From Bacillota bacterium (GTDB lineage: Bacteria > Bacillota > Sulfobacillia > Sulfobacillales > JAIMBI01), in assembly GCA_021820465.1 (NCBI GenBank), contig JAKADP010000009.1:1-51838 (forward strand): a stretch of DNA of 51,838 nucleotides, read 5' to 3'. Shown here piece after piece: positions 3,603 to 25,750 of the stretch; the first letter of the stretch is position 1; each line of letters opens with the position of its first letter. The notes under the pieces are model-generated. The model was given only the letters and a program-made list of their open reading frames with translations. It had not been told where the DNA came from and did no database searches. A program made the translations under genes and the position numbers.

Positions 3603-4676
3603 CTAGTGGAGCGGCCCCAGGCGAGGCAACAAGGTGAGTGCGGTCTCGTGGTACAGGGCGGCCAGTGCCTCTGAGGAGAGGTCGAGGCCATAAATCTTCC
3701 AGCGGCCCTGCAAGCCTGGGTGGCGCGCTTGGCCAGGGCTGTAGTCAAAGTACTCGTCGCGGGTTTCCAGCATGCGGTACACCGTGCGGTAGTCCTCACG
3801 GGTGGCCGGCCAGTCATCCAAGCCGAAAGCCACCCGGCCCCGGTGCGCCTCCAGAAAGTCGTGCGCCGTGTACGGCTGGCGGCCCAACTCCGCCGTGCGG
3901 GCAGCAATGTCCACGGTCAGATTGGGGTGGCGAGCCAGCAGGGCGGATGCCAGGGCGAGATCCTCCGCGCACGAGGCGACGTGCGCCCCGATAAAGCGCG
4001 TCTGGGGATGGCGGGCCATGACCGCTTCCCAGTCCCCAATCAGGTCAGCATGGCGGGGCACGCCGGGGCCATAGAAGTGCCAGTCCGGGTGGCGGACCAG
4101 CTCCTCGTACCGCTCGTTGGTGGCATCCAGCGGCTCGAAGAACGCCATCGGGTCTGCGACGTGAATCATGATGGGGACGCCGCGCTCGCCGCACGTGGCC
4201 CACAGGCCATCCAGCCGGGGATCGGAGAGGGCTAGCCGCTGGCCGTCCGGCGTCCGGCGGGTGAGCCCGACGTCCTTCCACACCTTGAGCCCCTCGGCGC
4301 CGTCGTCTAGCGCCTGGCGCAGTTCGCGGGTCAAGCGCTCGCCGAAGGCCTCATCGCGGAGCGCATGGTCCCAGTCCACGGTGGCAAACACCGCAAACCG
4401 GCTCGGGTATGGCCCGCGGAATCGCTCGAGGTGGGCCGCCAGCCGCGCGCCACTCCCGCCATCCAGGTCCACCATGGCGGCGACGCCCGCCGCGTCCATC
4501 TCGTCCACCAGCGCCGGGACGTCCGTGACTTGCCACTGCCCGCCCCACTGAGAGTGGTTGTGCAGGTCGATGACTGGATGCCGCGGATGCGCGACCGGGT
4601 GCGTGGGCACCCGCAGCATCGAACGGGGGCGAAAGTCCGACAGGGGCAACTCGGCGGGGGTGGGGGCATTTGGCAT
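3603..4676 (-). CDS. Amidohydrolase-2 family metal-dependent TIM-barrel hydrolase
   Basis: The product is 357 residues. The ATG at 4676 follows AGGAGGG with 5-nt spacing. Family signatures run in order: an N-terminal metal motif VIDLHNHSQWGG (HxH type), GLKVWKDVGL, IMIHVADPMAFFEP, FIGAHVAS and the late aspartate in FGLDDWP, ending with a KIYGLDLSSEALAALYHETA helix typical of this amidohydrolase subgroup. Such enzymes hydrolyse or decarboxylate small aromatic or lactone-like substrates; the substrate here cannot be told from sequence. The gene follows the Rieske gene by 57 bp on the same strand and may be the last gene of the suf transcript. No strong terminator separates the two. Confidence 0.8.
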   Translation of the reverse strand: MPNAPTPAELPLSDFRPRSMLRVPTHPVAHPRHPVIDLHNHSQWGGQWQVTDVPALVDEMDAAGVAAMVDLDGGSGARLAAHLERFRGPYPSRFAVFATVDWDHALRDEAFGERLTRELRQALDDGAEGLKVWKDVGLTRRTPDGQRLALSDPRLDGLWATCGERGVPIMIHVADPMAFFEPLDATNERYEELVRHPDWHFYGPGVPRHADLIGDWEAVMARHPQTRFIGAHVASCAEDLALASALLARHPNLTVDIAARTAELGRQPYTAHDFLEAHRGRVAFGLDDWPATREDYRTVYRMLETRDEYFDYSPGQARHPGLQGRWKIYGLDLSSEALAALYHETALTLLPRLGPLH

Positions 4677-15381: not shown

Positions 15382-15408
15382 GTTGAACCACAGTTCTCAT
15401 ATGAGAAT
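15382..15408 (+). promoter_or_regulatory. Candidate operator, copy 1, upstream of the rhamnose-type cluster
   Basis: The segment reads GTTGAAC, 3 nt, AGTTC, 4 nt, ATGAGAAT. It contains a perfect 14-bp palindrome, TTCTCATATGAGAA (15394-15407), plus GAAC-N4-GTTC overlapping it. It ends 12 bp before the GTG start at 15421. A second copy at 19649-19675, ahead of the transporter gene, agrees at the same spacing. The IclR-type regulator encoded at 21211 is the obvious candidate ligand. Confidence 0.7.
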
Positions 15409-15420
15409 CGGAGGTGGGCT

Positions 15421-16230
15421 GTGCCGTACTCGCTTCGCATCGTTCAGGTCGCCGACCTGGGAGAAGTGCCCGGCCCGGAGGTATTTTGGATGAGCCACTT
15501 CGGCCAGTGGCTGCCCCTTCGGGTGTACGTAGGCATCATCCGCGGCGAGGGCCGGACGGTTTTGGTTAACTCGGGCCCCCCCCAAGACTATCTGGACGTC
15601 ATGAACGACGTGTGGCGTGAGGAGCTGGGGCCACGCGCGCACATGACCGTGGACGGGGCGGACGCGGTGGCAGCGTGGCTGGACCGCGCTGGGGTGGCGC
15701 CCCAGGAGGTGGACGCCGTGATTGTCACCCCGCTCCAAGCGTATGCCATTGGGAACATCGACCGGTTCCCCAATGCCGAGGTGTGCGTCAGCCGCCGAGG
15801 ATGGGAAGATCTGGTCGCGCCGGCGCGCTTTGATCCTCGCCGGCGCATGGCGGTCCCGGATCGGCTGCTGCGCTACCTGTTGGAAGACCGCTGGGCGCGC
15901 CGGCGGTTTCGGCTCTTGCGCGATGCGGCAGACGAAGTGGTGCCGGGGGTGCGCACCTGGTGGGCCGGCACCCACCACCGGAGCTCACTGGCGGTCGAGG
16001 TGGACACGCCCCAGGGAGTGGCGATCCTGTCCGACGTGGCGTTCTACTACGACAACCTGGAGCAAGACCACCCGCTGGGCATTCAGGAGAGCATGGCGGA
16101 GTGCCGCCGAGCGTATGACCGCATCCGGGCCCGCGGCGATCGCTTTGTGTCGCTGTACGACCCGCGCAATGGCGTGCGCTTTCCCGATGGCTGGGTGGCG
16201 CCGCCGCCAGGGATGGAGGTGGCCGAGTGA
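15421..16230 (+). CDS. MBL-fold (AHL-lactonase-like) protein with degenerate metal site
   Basis: The product is 269 residues from GTG at 15421, with GGAGG 6 nt upstream. The layout follows AttM/AHL-lactonase-like metallo-beta-lactamase proteins: TVLVNSGPP in place of LVDTG, and VIVTPLQAYAIGN (residues 101-112) where HxHxDH should be. GTHHRSS follows and keeps one histidine, then LSDVAFYYDNLEQDHPLG keeps the bridging aspartate, and LYDPRNG replaces the final GHDP. Most zinc ligands are therefore lost. It is the first gene of the cluster, overlapping the next by 4 bp. Its place suggests a lactone- or substrate-binding role, but classical zinc lactonase chemistry is doubtful. Confidence 0.75.
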   Translation: MPYSLRIVQVADLGEVPGPEVFWMSHFGQWLPLRVYVGIIRGEGRTVLVNSGPPQDYLDVMNDVWREELGPRAHMTVDGADAVAAWLDRAGVAPQEVDAVIVTPLQAYAIGNIDRFPNAEVCVSRRGWEDLVAPARFDPRRRMAVPDRLLRYLLEDRWARRRFRLLRDAADEVVPGVRTWWAGTHHRSSLAVEVDTPQGVAILSDVAFYYDNLEQDHPLGIQESMAECRRAYDRIRARGDRFVSLYDPRNGVRFPDGWVAPPPGMEVAE

Positions 16231-17006
16231 CAGAGGGGCGGCTGAAGGGCAAGGTGGCCGTGGTGACGGGGTCCGGCCGCGGCATTGGGCGCGCGGTGGC
16301 GGAGCGCCTCGCCCAAGACGGAGCGCTCGTCGTCGTCAACTTTCCGGGCGAACCGGGCGAGGCCGACCACGCCGCGTCGCTCGTCGAGGAGATTCGGCGG
16401 GCGGGGGGCGAGGCCTGGCCGGTGGAGGCGGACGTCTCACAGGCCGACCAGGTGGCACGCCTGTTTGACCGCGTCGCCGCCGACGCCGGCTATGTCGATA
16501 TTTTGGTGAACAACGCGGGCATCTGCCCCTTCCAGGATTGGTGGGGCATGACCGAGGCGCTTTGGGACCGGGTTGCCGCAGTGAATCTTAAAGGAACGTT
16601 TCTGTGCAGCCATCGAGCGTCTCGGATGATGCGGGACCGCGGGGCCGGTGGCCGGATCATCAGCCTGTCCTCCATCTCCGCCCTGGTGGGCGGTGCCCTG
16701 CAGACGCACTACACGCCGACGAAGGCCGGGGTCCGGTCGCTGATGCAGTCGCTGGCCATCGTGCTGGGGCCGTACGGCATCACCTGCAACAGCGTGATGC
16801 CTGGGTCAATCCTGACGGACATCAACCGGGCCCACTATGAGGAGCCCGGCTTGAGGGCGCGGGATGAGGCGCGGATCCCGGTGGGCCGGCTGGGGCAGCC
16901 GCGCGACGTGGCCGGGGCCGTGGCTTTTCTGGCCAGCGATGAAGCGGCCTACATCACGGGAGCAGACATTCTGGTGGACGGCGGCCTGTTTGTGAATCTG
17001 CAGTAA
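16227..17006 (+). CDS. SDR oxidoreductase, probable L-rhamnose 1-dehydrogenase
   Basis: The product is 259 residues, GTG start overlapping the previous stop (GTGA). Classical SDR features: cofactor motif TGSGRGIG (residues 14-21), NNAG at 95-98, Asn120, Ser149, Tyr162 and Lys166 (YxxxK), and the terminal GADILVDGGL. The region after beta-2 (VNFPGEPGEAD) lacks the acidic residue of strictly NAD-specific members, so NADP use is possible. With rhamnose mutarotase and L-rhamnonate dehydratase in the same run of genes, oxidation of L-rhamnose to L-rhamnono-lactone is the most likely reaction. SDR substrate calls from sequence alone are weak, so this rests mainly on context. Confidence 0.8.
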   Translation: MTEGRLKGKVAVVTGSGRGIGRAVAERLAQDGALVVVNFPGEPGEADHAASLVEEIRRAGGEAWPVEADVSQADQVARLFDRVAADAGYVDILVNNAGICPFQDWWGMTEALWDRVAAVNLKGTFLCSHRASRMMRDRGAGGRIISLSSISALVGGALQTHYTPTKAGVRSLMQSLAIVLGPYGITCNSVMPGSILTDINRAHYEEPGLRARDEARIPVGRLGQPRDVAGAVAFLASDEAAYITGADILVDGGLFVNLQ

Positions 17007-17051
17007 TTCGGGCGGCGAGGTGCCGCAGCCAGGTCTGAGGAGGGATGGCGG

Positions 17052-17369
17052 GTGCAGCCAGCAGTTTTTCGGATGCGCATACGGCCGGGGATGGAAGAGG
17101 TGTACCGCGCCCGCCATCAGGCCGTCTGGCCGGAAGTGGAAGCCGCCCTCCGGCGCGCGGGCTTCTCGCGCTACAGCATTTTCGCGGCAGGAACGGAACT
17201 GGTGGCGTACTTTGAGGCGGTGGATCCGGCGTCCACTCTGGAGCGCTTGGCGGAAGATCCGGCGATGCAGCGGTGGTGGGCGTGGATGGCGCCGGTTATG
17301 GCGGACGAGCCCCCCGATGCCCATGACTACGTCCGGGTGTACCAGCTGGATGGACCAGGAGAGGAGTGA
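17052..17369 (+). CDS. rhaM: L-rhamnose mutarotase
   Basis: The product is 105 residues, GTG at 17052 with GAGGAGGG upstream. The RhaM/RhaU fold is recognised from FRMRIRPGMEEVYRARHQAVWPEVEAAL (His22 is the likely catalytic residue), YSIFAAGTELVAYFE and MQRWWAWMAPVM. The enzyme interconverts alpha and beta anomers of L-rhamnose, which helps a dehydrogenase that prefers one anomer. It lies between the SDR and MDR dehydrogenase genes and supports the rhamnose assignment of the cluster. Confidence 0.92.
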   Translation: MQPAVFRMRIRPGMEEVYRARHQAVWPEVEAALRRAGFSRYSIFAAGTELVAYFEAVDPASTLERLAEDPAMQRWWAWMAPVMADEPPDAHDYVRVYQLDGPGEE

Positions 17370-17373
17370 CGGG

Positions 17374-18405
17374 ATGCAGGCATTGGTCTGGGAAGGGCCC
17401 GAGCGCATGACCTACCGGAGCGCCGACGCTCCGGCGGCGTCGGCGGGCCACGTGGTCGTGCGCGTGGCTGGGGTGGGCGTGTGCGGGTCTGAACTGGGCG
17501 CCTACATGGGGCACAACGAACTTCGCCACCCCCCGCTAGTTATGGGCCACGAGTTTTCGGGCGTCGTGGTGGAGGTGGGGGACGGGGTCGACCCCGTCTG
17601 GAAGGGTGCCAGCGTGGTGGTGAACCCTCTGGTCACGTGTGGAACTTGCCGCTGGTGCCGAGGAGGCCAGCGGCAGCTGTGCCGCACCCGCCGGATTCTC
17701 GGGATTGACTTCCCGGGTGCCTTTGCGGAGCGCGTGGCTGTACCCGTCGGGGCGCTGCGCGCGGTGCACTGCGAGCTCGACAATCTCTGGACCGGGGCCC
17801 TGGTGGAGCCGCTGGCCTGCGCCGTCCGCGCCACGGGCCAGGCGGCGATTGAGGTGGGCGACGCGGTGCTCATTTACGGCGCCGGCATCATTGGGCTCAT
17901 GGCGGCGTGGATGGCGCGGCGGCGTGGCGCCGGGGCGGTGTGGCTGGTGGACGCCAATCCGGTACGCCTCCGCCACGGGGCGGTGTGGGGCGCGGACCGG
18001 GCGCTCAACGCCGTGGCTGACGACGTGGCCGCCTTGGTGCGGCGCGCGTGGCCCGACGGAGTCGACCGCGTGATTGACGCGGTAGGGATCTCGGCCACCC
18101 GCCGCGAGGGCCTAGAGCTGCTGACGCGCGGCGGGCGCATGGTGTTAGTGGGGCTTCACGAGCCAGCCACGGCGCTCGACGGCAATCGGTGGGTGCGGGA
18201 CGAGGCCGAGGTGGTCGGGTCATTCTGCTATCGGGACCAAGACTTTTCGGCCGCCGCCACCTTATGGGAGGCGGGTGCGCTGCCCACAGCGGGCGAATGG
18301 CTGGACCGCCGCTCACTGTCGGCGGGGGATGCTGCCTTTCAGGAACAGGCTCGGGGCCCGGCCCCGTTTGCCAAAATCGTGCTGGACGCGGAGGAACGCC
18401 CATGA
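17374..18405 (+). CDS. Zinc-dependent MDR dehydrogenase, candidate L-2-keto-3-deoxyrhamnonate 4-dehydrogenase
   Basis: The product is 343 residues, ATG 4 bp after the rhaM stop. It is a sorbitol/threonine-dehydrogenase-like MDR enzyme: catalytic zinc ligands Cys37 (GVCGSE), His59-Glu60 (GHEFSG) and Glu145 (LVEPLACA), structural zinc cysteines 89, 92, 95 and 103, and the Rossmann motif GAGIIG at 169-174. The known Sphingomonas 4-dehydrogenase (LRA5) is an SDR, so this would be a non-homologous replacement. Alternatives are an L-lactaldehyde or another polyol dehydrogenase. It overlaps the dehydratase gene by 4 bp (ATGA). Confidence 0.75.
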   Translation: MQALVWEGPERMTYRSADAPAASAGHVVVRVAGVGVCGSELGAYMGHNELRHPPLVMGHEFSGVVVEVGDGVDPVWKGASVVVNPLVTCGTCRWCRGGQRQLCRTRRILGIDFPGAFAERVAVPVGALRAVHCELDNLWTGALVEPLACAVRATGQAAIEVGDAVLIYGAGIIGLMAAWMARRRGAGAVWLVDANPVRLRHGAVWGADRALNAVADDVAALVRRAWPDGVDRVIDAVGISATRREGLELLTRGGRMVLVGLHEPATALDGNRWVRDEAEVVGSFCYRDQDFSAAATLWEAGALPTAGEWLDRRSLSAGDAAFQEQARGPAPFAKIVLDAEERP

Positions 18406-19574
18406 GCGGGGAGCGGATTCGGGCTGTGCGTGCGCTGACCGTGCGCGGAGGGGGCGCCGACTACCACGACCAGGCGGCGGACCATTGGATCGTGGGGCAG
18501 ATTGCCACCCCCATGTCTCGATACCCCGAATATCGCACGACGCGGTCGTCGTGGGGGATTGATGCGCTGGGCTCGGTGGTGGTGGAGGTGGAAGATGAGG
18601 CGGGCCGGGTGGGTGTCGGGGTTAGCACGGGCGGGGTGCCCGCGGCGTGGCTGGTGGCCCACCACTTGGACCGCTTTGTAGTGGGGCGGCAGCCAAGCCA
18701 GGTCGAGCTGATTTGGGACCAGATGTACCGGGCGTCACTGTACTACGGCCGCAAGGGCGTCGCCTTAAACGCCATCTCGGCCGTGGACTTAGCCCTGTGG
18801 GACCTTTGGGGGCGCCAGCGGCAGGAGCCCGTGTTTCACCTGCTGGGGGGGCCGGTTCGCCAAAAGCTTCCGTGCTACGCCACCGGGCCCCGTCCCGATT
18901 GGGCGGTGGCGGCCGGGTTTATCGGCGGAAAGCTGCCGCTGGTACACGGCCCCGACGAGGGCGCGGCCGGGCTGCGCCGGAATGTGGACCGAGTGGCGCA
19001 CGCGCGCGAGCAGGTGGGTCCCGATGCGCTTCTGATGGTGGACTGCTGGATGGCGCTGGATCTGAACTACGCGGAGCGGCTGCTGGCGGAGTTGGCGCCG
19101 CTGGGGGTGTACTGGGTCGAAGAGTGCTTTCCGGCCGATGATTATTGGTCGTATCGCGAGCTGCGCCGACGCCGGCCGCCGGGCATGCGAATCGCCACGG
19201 GGGAGCACGAGGCCACGCGGTGGGGCTTTCGGCTGCTGCTGGAGATGGAGGCCGCCGACGTCGTCCAGCCCGACGTGACGTGGTGTGGCGGGTTGACGGA
19301 GCTGATGCGGATTGCCGCGCTGGCGGACAGCTGGCAGGTGCCCGTGATTCCCCACGGGTCGAGCGTCTACAGCTACCACTTCGCCGCCGCCCGCGCGGCC
19401 ACCCCGTTTTCCGAGTTCCTCATGATGCATCCGACCGCGACGGGCCTCACCCCCATGTTTGACCCGCTGCTGCTGGGCGAGCCGCTGCCCGTGGGCGGGG
19501 TGATCACCGTGCCCGATACGCCGGGGTTTGGGGTGGAGCTCAATCGGTCCCTGGACTTGATCCCGGCTCCGTAA
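18402..19574 (+). CDS. rhmD: L-rhamnonate dehydratase (enolase superfamily)
   Basis: The product is 390 residues (E. coli RhmD is about 400). The resemblance to RhmD is strong end to end: GGADYHDQAADHWIVGQIATPMSRY, the LYYGRKG loop, YATGPRPD, GFIGGKLPL, LMVDCWMALDLNYAERL, WVEECFPADDYWSYREL, ATGEHE, QPDVTWCGGLTEL and IPHGSSVYSYH. Metal ligands are Asp214, the Glu240/241 position and Glu268; His318 is the catalytic histidine. The enzyme dehydrates L-rhamnonate to 2-keto-3-deoxy-L-rhamnonate. It is the most secure marker that this cluster handles L-rhamnose or a close 6-deoxy/lyxo-type sugar acid. Confidence 0.93.
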   Translation: MSGERIRAVRALTVRGGGADYHDQAADHWIVGQIATPMSRYPEYRTTRSSWGIDALGSVVVEVEDEAGRVGVGVSTGGVPAAWLVAHHLDRFVVGRQPSQVELIWDQMYRASLYYGRKGVALNAISAVDLALWDLWGRQRQEPVFHLLGGPVRQKLPCYATGPRPDWAVAAGFIGGKLPLVHGPDEGAAGLRRNVDRVAHAREQVGPDALLMVDCWMALDLNYAERLLAELAPLGVYWVEECFPADDYWSYRELRRRRPPGMRIATGEHEATRWGFRLLLEMEAADVVQPDVTWCGGLTELMRIAALADSWQVPVIPHGSSVYSYHFAAARAATPFSEFLMMHPTATGLTPMFDPLLLGEPLPVGGVITVPDTPGFGVELNRSLDLIPAP

Positions 19575-19648
19575 CCCGGGCCGTCGCGTCAAAATTTTTT
19601 GTGAAGCGTGGATGGCGGCAGGACTTGGCGGCCTGCAGCGCGAATAAT

Positions 19649-19675
19649 GTTGAACGGGAGTTCACGGATGAGAAT
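19649..19675 (+). promoter_or_regulatory. Candidate operator, copy 2, upstream of the MFS transporter gene
   Basis: GTTGAAC, 3 nt, AGTTC, 4 nt, ATGAGAAT occurs with exactly the spacing of copy 1 (15382-15408). It keeps GAAC-N4-GTTC and a degenerate TTC-N8-GAA dyad. It ends about 22 bp before the transporter start and overlaps the upstream in-frame ATG at 19668, which argues against that ATG as the start. Confidence 0.7.
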
Positions 19676-19697
19676 TGTTCGGAGGGGAGTGTTGCTT

Positions 19698-21059
19698 GTG
19701 AGCACCGCACCGGGATCCGGTGGGGGGGCGTTGGCGCAAGTGGACGAGGCCCGCCTGAGCGGGGCGCACTGGCGCTGGACCATTCTGTCCGCGCTGGGAG
19801 ATTATTTGGATGCCGGCTCTATCGTGGCCGGCGGCGCGTCGGTCTTGTTGTGGACGCAGCTGTACCACCTGGACTCGTCCACCGTGGGCCTCATTGCAGC
19901 GGTGGGGTCGAACGGCTTTTCCACAGCTGTGGGGGCTCTCATTGGGGGGCGGCTGGGCGACTTCTACGGTCGGAAATTTATTTATTCGATTGACTTGCTG
20001 ATTTATGCCCTGGGGGCGGTGGTTGTGATGCTGTCGGCCAGCCTCCCCCTGCTCATCGCGGGCTTAGTGGTCATGGGCCTCGCCGTCGGCGCGGACATAC
20101 CCACCTCCTGGTCCCTCATCGCCGAGTTTTCGCCGCGCCGCGAGCGGGGCAAAATGATGGGCTTCACCAACATCTTCTGGTACATCGGCCCCATCGTGAT
20201 TCTGCTGCTGTCGCTGGCGTTCAGCCACCTGGGCATCACCGGCGTGCGGCTGGTGTTTGGGAGCCTGCTGCTCGTGGCCGTGGTCACGTGGTTTCTGCGG
20301 CGGCGGCTGGCGGAGTCACCGCGTTGGGCGCTGGCCCGGGGCAAGACGGCTGAGGTGGAGAGTGCGGCTCAGCAGCTAGGCTTCCACGCTGAGGCGGCTG
20401 CCCCTGCCGCCGTGCCGGCGGTCGCGCCGTGGCGCGAGATGTTCCGGAATGGCGGCTGGCGGCGACTGGCGTTCATCACGCCCATCTACGTGCTGTGGGG
20501 CATCCCGGCCGGGACCTATGGGTTCTTTCTCCCGTACATCTTCAAGACCGAAGGCGCCACGACCGCCGCGGGGGGCGACTTGCTGGAGATTCTGTGGTTC
20601 GCCTCCGCTATCGTGGCCGTCCTCGTGATTTTCATGCCGTTCAACGATCGGGTGGACCGACGCATTCTGTATGCGATTAGTGCGGCGTTCTGTGCGGCGG
20701 CGTTCTACCTGCTGGTGGCGTTTCCGATCACGGACCCCACGGTGGCCATCTTAAACGTGCTGCTGTTTGGATTTGGCCAAGGCATTGGGCTGTGGCCGCT
20801 CCAGCGCGTGTGGTCGGTCGAGCTGTTTCCCACCAGCGTCCGCAACACCGCCCAGGGCTCGCTGTGGGCGGTCATGCGCATCATGATTGGCGGGTGGAGC
20901 CTCTTCCTGCCCGTGCTGGCAGGGGCCTCCGGGTTCAAGCTGGTGGCGGTGATCATGGGGCTGATGTTCACCTACAACCTGGTTGTCGGAGGATTGTTTG
21001 GACCGCGGACTGGCGGCCAGTCCTTGGAGGCGATTCAGTCCGGCAGCCTTGCGACCTAA
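19698..21059 (+). CDS. MFS transporter, sugar-porter type, probable rhamnose/6-deoxysugar uptake
   Basis: The product is about 453 residues from GTG at 19698 (GGAGGGGAG upstream; TTG at 19692 is the alternative). Twelve hydrophobic segments are apparent. The loop 2-3 motif is GGRLGDFYGRKFIY, and PTSWSLIAEFSPRRERGKMMG and the C-terminal ELFPTSVRNTAQGSLWAVMRI repeat are those of the sugar porter/SP-like MFS family. It has its own copy of the candidate operator and is followed by a strong GC hairpin. Substrate is inferred from neighbours. Confidence 0.85.
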   Translation: MSTAPGSGGGALAQVDEARLSGAHWRWTILSALGDYLDAGSIVAGGASVLLWTQLYHLDSSTVGLIAAVGSNGFSTAVGALIGGRLGDFYGRKFIYSIDLLIYALGAVVVMLSASLPLLIAGLVVMGLAVGADIPTSWSLIAEFSPRRERGKMMGFTNIFWYIGPIVILLLSLAFSHLGITGVRLVFGSLLLVAVVTWFLRRRLAESPRWALARGKTAEVESAAQQLGFHAEAAAPAAVPAVAPWREMFRNGGWRRLAFITPIYVLWGIPAGTYGFFLPYIFKTEGATTAAGGDLLEILWFASAIVAVLVIFMPFNDRVDRRILYAISAAFCAAAFYLLVAFPITDPTVAILNVLLFGFGQGIGLWPLQRVWSVELFPTSVRNTAQGSLWAVMRIMIGGWSLFLPVLAGASGFKLVAVIMGLMFTYNLVVGGLFGPRTGGQSLEAIQSGSLAT

Positions 21060-21072
21060 GGGTTAGGTGCAC

Positions 21073-21098
21073 GCGGCCGCGGGGCAGCCCGCGGCCGC
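21073..21098 (+). terminator. GC-rich hairpin after the MFS gene
   Basis: An 11-bp perfect stem, GCGGCCGCGGG (21073-21083) and CCCGCGGCCGC (21088-21098), has a 4-nt loop and begins 13 bp after the MFS stop codon. The following sequence TGTCTGTC is only weakly U-rich, so termination may be partial. Confidence 0.6.
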
Positions 21099-21210
21099 TG
21101 TCTGTCGGCTGAGCGCGGTGGCCTCCGCGAGCGGTTTGATACTATGGCCGCAAGGGCATGGCCCCAAACCGTGGGCCGAGGAGCGAAGAAGGCCAACCAA
21201 GGAGGCGCAT

Positions 21211-22026
21211 ATGGCGGAGCCGAGGGGCGCGGGTGCGGTGAAGTCGGCAGCTCGGGTGGTGGAAGTCCTGCAGGCGGTGGCGCTGCGGCCCCCAGGTCTG
21301 ACCTTCACGGAGCTGTTGGACGCGACGCACATTCCACGCAGCAGTCTCCACGGCTTGGTGCACACCCTGGCCGAGCGGGGGGTGATCCAGCTGGATGCCG
21401 CCAGCAAGCGCTATGCTCCGGGGCCGAAGCTGTGGGAGCTGGCCATGAGCTATGCGCAGCAGCTGCAACTCGTCCCCCTCGCGTGGCCCGCCCTCGAGGC
21501 TCTGCGCGACACCTTCGACGAAACGGTCCAGATGGGGGTCTTAAACGGCGCCGATGTGGTCTACGTGGCCAAAGCGTCGTCGAGCCACCCGATGCAGATG
21601 GTGTCCCACGTGGGTAGTCGCCTGCCGGCGTACGCCACCGGGCTCGGCAAAGCGCTGCTGGCGGGCTTGGCGCCCGCCGCTGTGGAGGCGCTCTTGCCCC
21701 CATCCTTGCCCCGGTTCACCCGAGACACCCTCACAGAGCGTGCGGCGCTGCAGGCGGAACTGGCGCGCGTGCGTGAGCGGGGCTATGCGCGGGATGCGGG
21801 CGAGTACTCGGCTGACGTGCGGTGTGTGGCGGCGCCGCTGGTGGACCACACGGGAGCCGTGGTGGCGGCCGTGTCGGTGACGATGGCCAGCGAGCGCTTT
21901 CAGCCCGAGCGAGAGGCCGCCATAGCGCCCGCGCTCGTGGCGGCGATGCAGCGGCTCAGCGCGCAGCTGGGCTGTCTGGATTGGCATCGCTGGCGGCAGA
22001 AAGGGGTGAAGCGTGGAGCAGGTTGA
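21211..22026 (+). CDS. IclR family transcriptional regulator
   Basis: The product is 271 residues, ATG at 21211 with GGAGG 5 nt upstream. It has an N-terminal winged helix (VKSAARVVEVLQAVALRPPGLTFTELLDATHIPRSSLHGLVHTLAERG) and a C-terminal effector domain with ADVVYVAKASSSHPMQMVSHVGSRLPAYATGLGKALLA and CVAAPLVDHTGAVVAAVSVTM, the IclR signature. It is positioned between the transporter gene and lutA, overlapping lutA by 14 bp, and likely regulates the flanking catabolic genes through the 15382/19649 motif. Its effector could be rhamnose, rhamnonate or KDR. Confidence 0.93.
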   Translation: MAEPRGAGAVKSAARVVEVLQAVALRPPGLTFTELLDATHIPRSSLHGLVHTLAERGVIQLDAASKRYAPGPKLWELAMSYAQQLQLVPLAWPALEALRDTFDETVQMGVLNGADVVYVAKASSSHPMQMVSHVGSRLPAYATGLGKALLAGLAPAAVEALLPPSLPRFTRDTLTERAALQAELARVRERGYARDAGEYSADVRCVAAPLVDHTGAVVAAVSVTMASERFQPEREAAIAPALVAAMQRLSAQLGCLDWHRWRQKGVKRGAG

Positions 22027-22843
22027 TTTGTTTGTCTCCTGTTTGGTTGATGCGTTTGAACCTGCAACTGGGCGGGCTGCCGTGGCCGTGATGGAGCGGC
22101 GCGGGGCCCGGGTGGCGTTTGCCGCCGGCCAGACGTGCTGCGGTCAGTTTGCGTACAACGCGGGCCATTGGCCTGAGGCGTGGGGCATGGCCAAGAACTT
22201 GCTGGAGGCGCTGGATACGCTGCCGCAGCCGGGGCCCGAGGCCGCGCGAACGACGGTGGGGTTGTCCGGGTCGTGCGTGGCGATGGTCCGGGAGGAATAC
22301 CCGAAGCTGTTGGACTGGGCAGCGGACCAGCCGGGCTGGGACACCAGCTGGCCGGTGCGCTACGCCCGCGTGGCGGGCCGACTCCTCGAATTCTCCCAGT
22401 GGCTCGGGCGAGCCGTCCCGGCGCCTCCGCCGCCCGAGGCGGCGAGCCCGACCCGCATCGCGCTTCATACCGGTTGCCACATGCGGCGGGTGCTGGAGGC
22501 GGGCGGGGAAGCGGCCCGGGTCATTGAGACCTTGGGGCTGACCGTGGCCATTCCGGAGGATGAGGATCAGTGCTGCGGGTTTGGCGGCACCTACGCCATG
22601 ACCGAGCCGAAAATCTCGACGGCGCTGGCGGATGCCAAGCTGGCAGCGCTGCAGGCCACCGGGGCGGAGGCCCTCGTCAGTTGCGATTGGGGTTGCCTGC
22701 TGCACCTTGGGGGGCGGCTGTCGCGCAGGGGGGCGGCGTGGCCGGTGCTGCATCTCGCCGAGCTGGTGGACTTGGGCGACCGCGGGGACTTGAGTCCCGC
22801 CCGCCTCGCCCAGGTGGGCCAGTTTGTCCGGGAGGACCCCTGA
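22013..22843 (+). CDS. lutA: LutA-type (Fe)-S oxidoreductase, L-lactate utilisation
   Basis: The product is 276 residues, GTG start with AAAGGGG upstream, overlapping the iclR end by 14 bp. It contains two CCG (cysteine-rich) domains: CLVDAFEP...GQTCCGQFAYN and GCHMRRVLEA...DEDQCCGFGG...SCDWGCLLHLGG. With LutB and LutC it forms the FAD-independent lactate dehydrogenase complex that oxidises L-lactate to pyruvate. It is slightly longer than the common 238-residue form because of an extended linker and C-terminus. Confidence 0.92.
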   Translation: MEQVDLFVSCLVDAFEPATGRAAVAVMERRGARVAFAAGQTCCGQFAYNAGHWPEAWGMAKNLLEALDTLPQPGPEAARTTVGLSGSCVAMVREEYPKLLDWAADQPGWDTSWPVRYARVAGRLLEFSQWLGRAVPAPPPPEAASPTRIALHTGCHMRRVLEAGGEAARVIETLGLTVAIPEDEDQCCGFGGTYAMTEPKISTALADAKLAALQATGAEALVSCDWGCLLHLGGRLSRRGAAWPVLHLAELVDLGDRGDLSPARLAQVGQFVREDP

Positions 22844-24312
22844 TGGCCGGCTCGCTGCCGCGCGACCCGGCGCCATGGGCGGTGCGCCGGGATCGGGCGC
22901 TGGCCAACCCTCGGCTCCGGGCCAACATCGGAAGGGTCGCACGCCGGCTGGCGGGTGCCCGCCAGCAGGCCTACGCCAGCTATCCGGCGGGTCGGGCACT
23001 GCGGGTGGCCGGACGGGATGCCAAGCGTCGTGCAGTGGCGCACTTGGAGCCTCTGTTGGATCAGCTGCGCGACCAACTCTCAGCCAACGGGGCTCGGGTG
23101 ATTTTTGCTGAGGGTCCCAAGGAGGTGGCCGACTACATTGTGAGCCTAGCCGCCCGGCGGGGAGCCCAGCGCGTCGTCAAGTCCAAAAGCATGCTGACGG
23201 AGGAACTGGACCTGAACCGGCGCTTGGCAGCGGCCGGCTTGACCGTCCGGGAGACGGATCTGGGGGAATACATCATCCAGTTGCTGGACGAGCGGCCGAG
23301 CCACATCTTGGCGCCCGCGGCCCACCGCAATCGCCAGGAAATTGCGGCCATCTTTCAAGACACGGCTGACCGGGCGGGGGTGCCCGGCCCCACCTCCGAC
23401 GAGGTGGGGCCACTCGCCGCGTTCGCGCGCGCCCGCCTGCGGGAAGAATTTCTGGCGGCGGACATCGGCATCACGGGAGCCAACTTCCTGGTGGCCGAGA
23501 CGGGGACCGTCGTGCTGGTCACCAACGAGGGCAACGCCGACATGGTGGCGTCCCTGCCCCCGGTGCACGTCGTCGTCGCCGGCATCGACAAGGTGCTGGA
23601 TACATGGGAGGACTTAGCGGCCGTAATCCAGCAGCCGGCCCTGTCGGGCGTGGGGCAGCGCCTGTCGGCCTACACCACCCTCATCTCGGGGCCGCGCGCG
23701 CCGGGGGCGGAAGAGGGGCCCGAGGAACTCCACGTGCTGCTGGTGGACAACGGCCGCCGGCCACTGCTCGGGGGCCCCTACGCGGACGTCCTGACCTGCA
23801 TTCGGTGCGGGGCCTGCTACAACGTGTGCCCGGTCTACCGACAGGTGGGGGGACACGCGTACGGCTCCACGTACGCTGGTCCGATTGGGGCGGTAGAAAC
23901 CCCCCTGCTGGCGGGATTGAATTTCCTGCCGGAGCTGCCCAAGTCGCTCTGCACGCTGTGCAACGCCTGCGTGGACGCTTGCCCGATGGATATAGCGCTG
24001 CCAGACCACTTCATCACGCTGCGCCGGCAGCAGGTGGATGAGCGCGGGGAGCCGAGCACCACGCGGCTTACGTATCGGACGTGGGGGCGTCTCTGGTCCT
24101 CTCCACGACAGTACCAGCGCTTTCTCGCGTGGGCGCGTCGGGGTCAGCGCTTCATGATGCGCCAGGGTCGGCTGGTGCGCGCACCGGGCTTCCTGGGCGG
24201 GTGGTTCGAGACGCGGGACATGCCCCCCATCGCGGCCGAAACCTTTCACGAGTGGTGGGCCCGCCGCGCGTCTTCGCCGGCCTTATCGCGCTCAGACGAG
24301 GCGCCGTCATGA
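22843..24312 (+). CDS. lutB: LutB-type iron-sulfur protein, L-lactate utilisation
   Basis: The product is 489 residues, ATG overlapping the lutA stop (TGATG) with GGAGG upstream. The N-terminal LUD domain includes VVKSKSMLTEELDLNRRL, the SHILAPAAHRNR segment and the ADIGITGANFLVAETGTVVLVTNEGN signature. Two 4Fe-4S motifs follow: CIRCGACYNVCP from Cys319 and CTLCNACVDACP from Cys370. The C-terminal FxxWARRGQRFM region is typical. It overlaps lutC by ATGA. Confidence 0.95.
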   Translation: MAGSLPRDPAPWAVRRDRALANPRLRANIGRVARRLAGARQQAYASYPAGRALRVAGRDAKRRAVAHLEPLLDQLRDQLSANGARVIFAEGPKEVADYIVSLAARRGAQRVVKSKSMLTEELDLNRRLAAAGLTVRETDLGEYIIQLLDERPSHILAPAAHRNRQEIAAIFQDTADRAGVPGPTSDEVGPLAAFARARLREEFLAADIGITGANFLVAETGTVVLVTNEGNADMVASLPPVHVVVAGIDKVLDTWEDLAAVIQQPALSGVGQRLSAYTTLISGPRAPGAEEGPEELHVLLVDNGRRPLLGGPYADVLTCIRCGACYNVCPVYRQVGGHAYGSTYAGPIGAVETPLLAGLNFLPELPKSLCTLCNACVDACPMDIALPDHFITLRRQQVDERGEPSTTRLTYRTWGRLWSSPRQYQRFLAWARRGQRFMMRQGRLVRAPGFLGGWFETRDMPPIAAETFHEWWARRASSPALSRSDEAPS

Positions 24313-24932
24313 GCGGACGCGGCACGAGCCCGCTTCTGGAGGCATTTCGCATGCGCTGGGAGGCGCTGGGCGGGCACTACTGGGAGAGCGAGCCCGGGGC
24401 CGGCTTGGCACAAGCGGTGGCCGCGGCCGCCGACCGCCTGGTCGAGCGGGCGCCCGAGCGCATGCCCTCGGTCCTGTGGTGGCCCGGGCCGGCGTGGGCG
24501 GCCCTCGCGTGGAAGGCGGCGCTGCCGGCGGGCCGATGGGCCGTCACGCCGGTCACCGGCGGCGGTCCCATGGAGCCGGGCGCCCTGCGGAGCGTGGCCG
24601 CGTCGGCCGCCCTTGGGGTCACCGGGGCTGCCTGGGCGGCGGCCGACACCGGGTCGGTGGCGCTTGCCAGCGAGCCGGGGCAGGGTCTCTGGCCCAGCCT
24701 CCTGCCTCCGAGCCACCTTATCCTGCTGCGGGCGGCTCAGGTGGTGCCCACCCTGGCCGATGGCCTCAGGGTGATGCGATCCGAGGGCGGGATGCCGCCC
24801 ATGGCCAAAATCATCTCCGGACCCAGTTCGACCGCTGACATTGAAGGTCAGCTGTGGGTAGGGGTGCATGGGCCCGGGCGTGTCGGCGTGGTGGTGGTCA
24901 CCGGCCCGATGCCCGACGACGGCGGCCGCTAG
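24309..24932 (+). CDS. lutC: LutC-type LUD-domain protein, L-lactate utilisation
   Basis: The product is 207 residues, ATG overlapping the lutB stop (ATGA). The LUD fold is recognised from the GVTGAAWAAADTGSVALAS segment, the HLILLRAAQVVPTL strand-helix and ISGPSSTADIEGQLWVGVHGP near the C-terminus. It completes lutABC, placed directly after the iclR gene. The gene converges with dppA, overlapping it by 4 bp. Confidence 0.92.
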   Translation: MSGRGTSPLLEAFRMRWEALGGHYWESEPGAGLAQAVAAAADRLVERAPERMPSVLWWPGPAWAALAWKAALPAGRWAVTPVTGGGPMEPGALRSVAASAALGVTGAAWAAADTGSVALASEPGQGLWPSLLPPSHLILLRAAQVVPTLADGLRVMRSEGGMPPMAKIISGPSSTADIEGQLWVGVHGPGRVGVVVVTGPMPDDGGR

Positions 24933-25750
24933 CGGTCGGCCGTGGATCCTAGGAGCAGCGCACCCATCGCCATCCGCCACGCCGTGACCACGTCGCCGCC
25001 GGTGACCGCGATAGTTCGGGCATCTACGCGCTCCACCGCGGGGAACCAGCACGCCACCTCCGCGTGCGTGGACCGCACCATTTCGATTTGGAAGGTGACT
25101 GGGCCGTCCACGCGCACGGGGGCCACATCGGCTCGCCCGCGGATGGCGGCTTCCACGCCTTCGCGAAGGTCGTGGTGCACGGCGCTGCGCGGCCGCGACC
25201 GCGCGGCGAGGGTGTCGAGGGCGTACTTCACGACGACCGTGCGGGTGGCGGGCAGGGTCGCCTCCACCTGCTGTGCCAGCTTGTCGTCGCCGCTGACCAG
25301 CACAAGGGGCGCGCCGAACGAGCCAGCCAGCGCCGCATTGATTTGGGTTTCGCCCACCAGGACCCCGTTCATCCACCAGTTGTGCACCTGGGCTCCCGAG
25401 ATGGTGTGGTCCAGCACGGCCTGGGCCGTGCCCGCCCACGCATGGTAGCCAATGCACACCACGGCGTCGGAGCCGTCGACGCCCTGCATCATGCAGAGGG
25501 GCTTGTTGAACCCGGAGATGAGCTCTGCGCGCGGGTCCAACTCTTCGTACAGCAGGTTGCGCATGCCCCCATGCGAGTCGTTGACCCAAATCTCATCGGC
25601 TCCGGCCGCAGCCGCGCCGGCGATAGCCTGATTGGCTTCGTCCGTCATCAGGCGGCGGAACCGCTCGTACTCCGAGTGGCCCCGCGCCACCTCGTCGCGA
25701 CCGGTCACACCTGCGATGCCTTCCATATCGACAGAAATCAACACCTTCAT
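24929..25750 (-). CDS. dppA: M55 family D-aminopeptidase (DppA-like)
   Basis: The product is 273 residues, ATG with GGGGAGGTGCGCG upstream. M55 zinc ligands are present: Asp8 and Glu10 (VDMEGIAGV), His60 (NDSHGGMRN) and His103 (GYHAWAG). HTISGAQVHNWWMNGVLVGETQINAALAG and VSGDDKLAQQ are family hallmarks. DppA-type enzymes form toroidal complexes and release N-terminal D-amino acids from short D-Ala peptides, often in peptidoglycan recycling or sporulation. It is monocistronic, convergent with lutC. Confidence 0.93.
   Translation of the reverse strand: MKVLISVDMEGIAGVTGRDEVARGHSEYERFRRLMTDEANQAIAGAAAAGADEIWVNDSHGGMRNLLYEELDPRAELISGFNKPLCMMQGVDGSDAVVCIGYHAWAGTAQAVLDHTISGAQVHNWWMNGVLVGETQINAALAGSFGAPLVLVSGDDKLAQQVEATLPATRTVVVKYALDTLAARSRPRSAVHHDLREGVEAAIRGRADVAPVRVDGPVTFQIEMVRSTHAEVACWFPAVERVDARTIAVTGGDVVTAWRMAMGALLLGSTADR

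Follow-up and report, generated by a model that had tools for sequence, protein, structure and literature searches.

Organization of the cluster

The DNA analyzed here (the window) is the 51,838-nucleotide contig JAKADP010000009.1 from a Bacillota bacterium of the order Sulfobacillales (assembly GCA_021820465.1), which is contig C77 of a 2.88 Mb draft genome that is 96% complete. Between positions 15421 and 24932, it carries ten genes, all on the forward strand, which encode in order a metallo-β-lactamase (MBL)-fold protein, an SDR dehydrogenase, the L-rhamnose mutarotase RhaM, an MDR dehydrogenase, the L-rhamnonate dehydratase RhmD, a sugar-porter MFS, an IclR-family regulator, LutA, LutB and LutC (Table 1). 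This unit is very likely a non-phosphorylative pathway of L-rhamnose oxidation extended by LutABC. An earlier note on this DNA had described nine of these genes as one run in which RhmD was a strong match and iclR overlapped lutA. All nine were found where it had placed them, RhmD far exceeds its model's cut-off, and the overlap amounts to 14 bp, given a lutA start at GTG 22013. The first gene of the run, which encodes the MBL-fold protein and lies within the interval covered by that note, had been overlooked.

Table 1. Genes and sequence elements of the rhamnose-lactate cluster (positions in the window).
Feature	Position	Strand	Remarks
Operator-like palindrome GTTCTCATATGAGAAT	15393-15408		Just upstream of the MBL gene; kept in G001, G002, G003
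MBL-fold protein, candidate L-rhamnono-lactonase	15421-16230	+	Metal-ligand run replaced by TPLQAYA
SDR, probable L-rhamnose 1-dehydrogenase	16227-17006	+	Best NCBIfam model RhamDHLra1, 328.1 bits (cut-off 400)
L-rhamnose mutarotase RhaM	17052-17369	+	PF05336, 86.5 bits (cut-off 23.4)
MDR zinc dehydrogenase, probable 2-keto-3-deoxy-L-rhamnonate 4-dehydrogenase	17374-18405	+	ADH_N and ADH_zinc_N over cut-off
L-rhamnonate dehydratase RhmD	18402-19574	+	NF011968, 603.9 bits (cut-off 393)
Second operator-like palindrome GTTCACGGATGAGAAT	19660-19675		Upstream of MFS; kept in G001, G002, G003
Sugar-porter MFS, probable L-rhamnose uptake	19698-21059	+	PF00083, 120.9 bits
11-bp GC hairpin	21073-21098		Behind MFS; possible attenuator, weak
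Conserved promoter-like element GGTTTGATACTATGG	21133-21147	+	Upstream of iclR; identical in 3/4 same-genus sequences, two changes in the fourth
IclR-family regulator	21211-22026	+	PF01614, 160.1 bits; HTH_IclR, 46.8 bits
LutA, two CCG domains	22013-22843	+	PF02754, 95.3 bits, two stretches
LutB, LUD domain and 4Fe-4S	22843-24312	+	TIGR00273, 409.4 bits (below cut-off 444.8); PF02589, 158.1 bits
LutC, LUD domain	24309-24932	+	PF02589, 82.9 bits

The identity of RhmD is secure from its score (Table 1). Its motifs DCWM, EE, GEH, QPDV and PHGSSVYS are identical in an alignment with 2oz3 and 2i5q; which of their letters are metal ligands or the His base is our assumption. The SDR, for which NF053807 (Lra1) ranked top among 230 models, is a probable L-rhamnose 1-dehydrogenase. 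The domain evidence for the MDR consists of zinc ADH domains only and the C4 oxidation of 2-keto-3-deoxy-L-rhamnonate (KDR) is a predicted activity, the probable role as KDR 4-dehydrogenase being proposed by analogy with the Sulfobacillus enzyme described in a passage of PMC5674754. Relatives of this MDR (50–52% identity) sit within the rhamnose clusters of Sulfobacillus isolates. The last three genes have the LutABC layout, with adjacent genes for a CCG protein, a LUD and 4Fe-4S protein and a LUD protein.

Conservation among relatives

In a search of 61 genomes, in which sequences of at least 54% identity, fragments included, were taken as RhmD orthologues, 25 contained one. The same ten genes occur in the same order in all three same-genus relatives (G001, G002 and G003). 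An orthologue of the MBL-fold protein (at least 54% identity) was found in 23 of the 25 genomes with RhmD and in none of the 36 remaining ones; as for the two without it, a contig end falls inside the cluster of G006, and G036 is 71% complete. In the related family f3, clusters are usually built around MBL-MDR-(FAH)-SDR-RhmD, FAH being an FAH-family hydrolase, with iclR often beside it or divergent, and lutABC stands directly behind RhmD in several of these clusters. The same-genus gene order and a recurrent palindrome upstream of the MBL gene establish that this arrangement is not due to chance.

In G025 (L039/L052), one cluster combines two adjacent MBL paralogues with a pair of RhmD-like genes and an FAH-family gene that is only distantly related (32%). 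Directly behind lutC, a convergent gene on the reverse strand (24932-25750) encodes an M55 D-aminopeptidase, which is likewise next to the cluster in two of the same-genus relatives, G001 and G003, and about 3 kb from it in G002.

A ligand-poor lactonase-like family

The MBL-fold protein scores marginally below the PF00753 cut-off (22.5 bits for 22.7). The closest PDB structures of its AlphaFold model (pLDDT 92.9) are zinc lactonases, N-acyl homoserine lactone lactonases such as 8x78 being the best (Z 30.4) and 4-pyridoxolactonase 3aj3 having a Z of 25.6. With 253 of the 269 residues superposing on 8x78 at 2.5 Å, the overall lactonase fold is present. The canonical zinc-ligand set (HxHxDH with distal His and Asp) is absent from the protein, in which the GxHHRSS histidines and D205 remain. 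Compared with the seven positions that we take to be the metal ligands of AiiA, five are changed, and the first HHRSS histidine and D205 align with the other two. TPLQAYA replaces the HxHxDH run in each of the 22 orthologues found by homology beside RhmD, which is the unbiased count. It is also present in 44/44 rows of a wider set, which was largely selected for this motif, TPLQAYAxG[NG] having been one of the two patterns of the contig scan. These 44 sequences share forty invariant columns, which speaks for an active function. Three canonical relatives, 29–33% identical and from the same order, have THLHYDH, GGHTPGST and SHDP where the ligand-poor family has TPLQAYA, GxHHRSS and YDP or similar. 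Among eight more distant matches fetched, HxHxDH was found in all five that aligned, three giving no alignment at that setting.

The MBL-fold protein is the best candidate for the rhamnonolactonase step. We tentatively propose, as a possibility that falls somewhat short of probable, that it represents a new class of L-rhamnono-lactonase which has lost five of the seven ligand positions and would use another, strictly conserved site (TPLQAYA, GxHHRSS, D205 and Y246), with no metal at all or with a single unusual one. A different candidate lactonase, the Amidohydro_2 protein encoded at 3606-4676 (reverse strand), for which no NCBIfam match was obtained, was rejected because a match occurs in only one of 127 loci (a 55% relative beside FAH-lutABC in G031, L125) and does not travel with rhmD.

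One may also consider that the MBL-fold protein, as the sole hydrolase-like gene product of a cluster without FAH and lacking most of the expected metal ligands, acts as hydrolase on the diketo acid rather than on the lactone. This is unlikely, as its gene is present equally in clusters with FAH and beside an aldolase-family gene, its closest structural neighbors are lactonases, and a fucose-like locus of the same order (L126, see below) has an amidohydrolase lactonase homologue instead.

The family of this putative lactonase was found in genomes of Bacillota, Acidobacteria, Ignavibacteria and Burkholderiales, a rhamnose setting being seen in Bacillota and Acidobacteria. Of 22 loci from outside Bacillota, eight, all from Acidobacteria (L079, L081, L083, L084, L087, L088, L089 and L091), have LutA in the neighborhood of the MBL gene, six of them together with LutB. 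L091 also encodes an FAH, along with an enolase-family dehydratase and a GH78 rhamnosidase. Among the few non-Bacillota MBL loci whose genes were scanned, rhamnosidases are encoded in L091 and L094 (GH78) and in L071 (GH106). In L094, from a Vicinamibacteraceae metagenome-assembled genome, a homologue of the lactate racemase LarA (L094:13586-14872) lies near the MBL gene, RhaT and the GH78 rhamnosidase. In the Paenibacillus locus L068, the MBL gene accompanies an enolase-family dehydratase near a GH127 enzyme, and the substrate range of the family may therefore be wider. This conserved and uncharacterized family, likely the missing lactonase, is the more novel part of the findings.

Operator-like sites and transcription units

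The palindromes upstream of the MBL and MFS genes are the two matches to RTTC-N8-GAAY in the whole window, where 1.2 are expected. Of the 23 regions upstream of MBL genes, 15 contain the palindrome (0.25 expected), within about 110 bp and with little variation in its distance, and the count is 11/19 when the four sequences in which it was first seen are left out; these regions are related sequences and not independent draws. It precedes MFS in 4/8 cases, all from the window's genus, and lies near the MFS genes of L042 and L045, which are outside this count. The MFS start was set at GTG 19698 rather than at ATG 19668 because the second palindrome overlaps the latter and the four same-genus sequences are alike from 19698 onward.

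A sigma-70 scan did not flag GGTTTGATACTATGG, the promoter-like element upstream of iclR. The promoter scan returned one site, on the reverse strand inside the SDR gene (0.7 expected), and the terminator scan gave no excess (7 vs 5.2 expected). As for the hairpin behind MFS, a 76-nt stretch folds no better than shuffled sequences (z -0.94, 32/200 as good).

With two palindromes and a separate iclR element, a single transcription unit for the whole cluster is unsupported; judging from these sites, there are probably two or three units, and transcription of lutABC may be separate or come from read-through. The IclR regulator is the obvious candidate for the predicted binding of the palindromes. 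The idea that all these genes form one functional unit, advanced in the earlier note, is retained for a cluster conserved in 3/3 same-genus relatives and set aside as regards a single transcript.

Linkage of LutABC to rhamnose and related pathways

Full-length LutB copies of at least 51% identity were surveyed in families f1 and f3. Of the 35 obtained, 13 have RhmD at no more than 10 kb and 19 have an FAH gene at no more than 5 kb; in all, 26 are near one or the other and nine near neither. RhmD and LutB are both present in 20 genomes and linked in 13, or in 12 copies when G033, which is linked only through an RhmD fragment of 56 residues at a distance of 8 kb, is left out. A single clade of rhamnose-linked LutB was rejected by the tree, on which the RhmD-linked copies need six changes (p-AU 2.6e-54). 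The linkage has therefore arisen or been lost repeatedly, part of the change count being explained by G012, in which one of two almost identical LutB copies is linked and the other is not. At four loci lutA begins 7–25 bp behind rhmD, and at three others 134–218 bp behind it; in G038, the gene 36 bp before lutA is FAH and not rhmD.

No full-length LutB other than that of the cluster was found in the window genome. This 96% complete draft yielded no PF02652 lactate permease in a profile search and four short FMN_dh matches, three of them over the Pfam cut-off and the best with 36.1 bits over 115/350 positions, in a survey in which D-lactate dehydrogenases were not searched for. The sole full-length LutB, the short FMN_dh matches and the lack of a PF02652 permease fit lactate made inside the cell. 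The earlier suggestion that LutABC would carry the sugar fully to pyruvate is a coupling idea which is not new.

FAH, lutA, lutB and lutC also stand in a row at five loci without RhmD orthologue (L123-L127), chosen because their FAH was known to adjoin LutB. At L126, an amidohydrolase encoded about 9 kb off has L-fucono-1,5-lactonase as its best model (205.9 of 400 bits), and further genes code for altronate-type dehydratase domains, for an aldo-keto reductase and an SDR, and for RhaM. From its gene content, this locus resembles a diketo-hydrolase pathway for L-fucose whose lactonase would be an amidohydrolase. The FAH-lutABC block points to a pattern wider than rhamnose in this order. The cluster of the window exemplifies a recurrent genomic solution to a metabolic loose end that is already known, whereby pathways ending in pyruvate and L-lactate carry their own lactate oxidation genes.

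Proposed pathway and alternatives

The rhamnose isomerase RhaA (PF06134) had no match in the window genome, a 96% complete draft, in a search that was positive in the controls E. coli, B. subtilis and Bacteroides ihuae. The route is for this reason probably the diketo-hydrolase one, leading to pyruvate and L-lactate as formerly proposed, with the difference that the hydrolase lies outside the cluster. The genome, which has one GH78 rhamnosidase, contains two FAH genes, both away from the cluster. The one on contig C92 shares, over some 210 residues, about 50% identity with the FAH that relatives encode in their clusters and is the best candidate for the pathway hydrolase. FAH is encoded inside the cluster in nine f3 relatives, including G029 (on a piece with its MBL gene), and sits in relatives either in the rhamnose cluster or directly before lutABC. 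One in-cluster FAH was scored, its best model being 2,4-didehydro-3-deoxy-L-rhamnonate hydrolase (222.1 of the 500-bit cut-off), and the in-cluster copy of G040 carries a disrupting frame change.

We are fairly confident that this is a catabolic cluster oxidizing the plant sugar L-rhamnose completely to two pyruvates. In the proposed mechanism, in which the enzyme activities, the inducer and the pairing of sites with regulator are predictions, L-rhamnose would be taken up by the MFS, its anomers converted by RhaM, and C1 oxidized by the SDR to a lactone, which the MBL-fold protein would open. RhmD would dehydrate L-rhamnonate to KDR, the MDR would oxidize KDR at C4, and the FAH-family hydrolase encoded on C92 would cleave the product to pyruvate and L-lactate, the latter being oxidized to pyruvate by LutABC. 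IclR would probably bind the GTTC-N8-GAAY sites before MBL-SDR-RhaM-MDR-RhmD and before MFS, so that both gene sets would respond to a pathway intermediate.

Several observations weigh against this account. The SDR, LutB and RhaM (TIGR02625, 60.8 bits for a cut-off of 99.6) score below their equivalog cut-offs. A domain scan found an FAH-family diketo-acid hydrolase in none of the ten cluster genes, and the C92 protein reaches only 198.3 of the 500-bit cut-off of its best model, NF053535 (2,4-didehydro-3-deoxy-L-rhamnonate hydrolase). In 8/23 regions upstream of MBL, the palindrome does not occur; iclR and lutA have no such site before them, and iclR is preceded by a conserved element of its own, so that the co-induction of lutABC with rhmD stays a prediction. 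RhmD and LutB are on different contigs or far apart in 7 of the 20 genomes with both (drafts, in which some breaks may be contig ends), and a full-length LutB is lacking in 5/25 genomes with RhmD. In two relatives, a DHDPS-like gene in the rhamnose cluster makes an aldolase branch possible there. These genes, named by reading the sequence, lie between MBL and MDR in L043 and L044 (G035 and G038); that of G038 is a short piece.

Part of these data would also be explained if LutABC were a general lactate utilization operon merely adjoining the rhamnose cluster. The iclR-lutABC genes have their own upstream element and no palindrome copy, these genes include the one full-length LutB of the genome and may therefore also act on lactate from other sources, and RhmD and LutB are unlinked in 7/20 relatives, 9/35 LutB copies being near neither RhmD nor FAH. 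However, linked copies turn up on separate branches of the LutB tree, Acidobacteria repeat the association near the MBL gene, lutA starts at most 50 bp behind rhmD or FAH in several relatives, and a PF02652 permease was not found in the window genome, which makes this explanation quite improbable. Less likely still is a lactate derived from lactaldehyde, which the lack of FAH in the cluster, the DHDPS-like aldolase genes of two relatives and a DHDPS-family gene beside MBL in the Acidobacteriaceae locus L071 would favor, and against which stand the lack of an aldolase gene in the window's cluster, the FAH genes (one frame-broken) in the clusters of nine relatives and the MDR-type KDR dehydrogenase characterized in Sulfobacillus according to a passage of PMC5674754.

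Comparison with known systems

Coupling of rhamnose breakdown to lactate oxidation is already published in other settings, as passages of PMC3870299 and PMC8305020 describe. A search of the open-licence literature found no report of a non-phosphorylative route joined to LutABC across one order, of the FAH-lutABC block or of the ligand-poor lactonase-like family.

The proposed pathway resembles the diketo-hydrolase Route III of Sphingomonas, which passages of PMC5674754 and PMC6336799 describe as comprising LRA1-3, LRA5 and LRA6, in its rhamnose dehydrogenase, rhamnonate dehydratase and KDR dehydrogenase and in its products, pyruvate and L-lactate. It differs from it in that the candidate KDR dehydrogenase is an MDR and not an SDR, FAH is outside the cluster, an MBL-fold protein stands at the place of the lactonase and LutABC is attached. 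An MDR-type KDR dehydrogenase from the same order is that of Sulfobacillus thermosulfidooxidans (Bae 2015, as cited in a passage of PMC5674754), to which the MDR is likened by description and not by sequence comparison.

In the RhaR regulons of Actinomycetales and Rhodobacterales, lldD or lldEFG have been proposed, in the part of the study concerned, to extend rhamnose breakdown to pyruvate in genomes with RhaEW (Rodionova 2013, PMC3870299). Rhamnose genes are similarly associated there with L-lactate oxidation to pyruvate. Co-regulation by RhaR belongs to that system, whose route is phosphorylative (RhaEW), whereas the present one is non-phosphorylative. In Haloferax volcanii, deletion of LudBC (HVO_1692/1693) impairs growth on rhamnose (PMC8305020, citing Reinhardt 2019), LUD-type lactate oxidation again serving a rhamnose route which yields pyruvate and lactate. 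In contrast, LudBC is archaeal and is called very distant to LutABC in the relevant passage of PMC8305020, which describes no shared gene cluster.

Finally, the MBL-fold protein shares its whole fold with the lactonases AiiA, 8x78 and 4-pyridoxolactonase, whereas five of the seven positions presumed to bind the metal are replaced.

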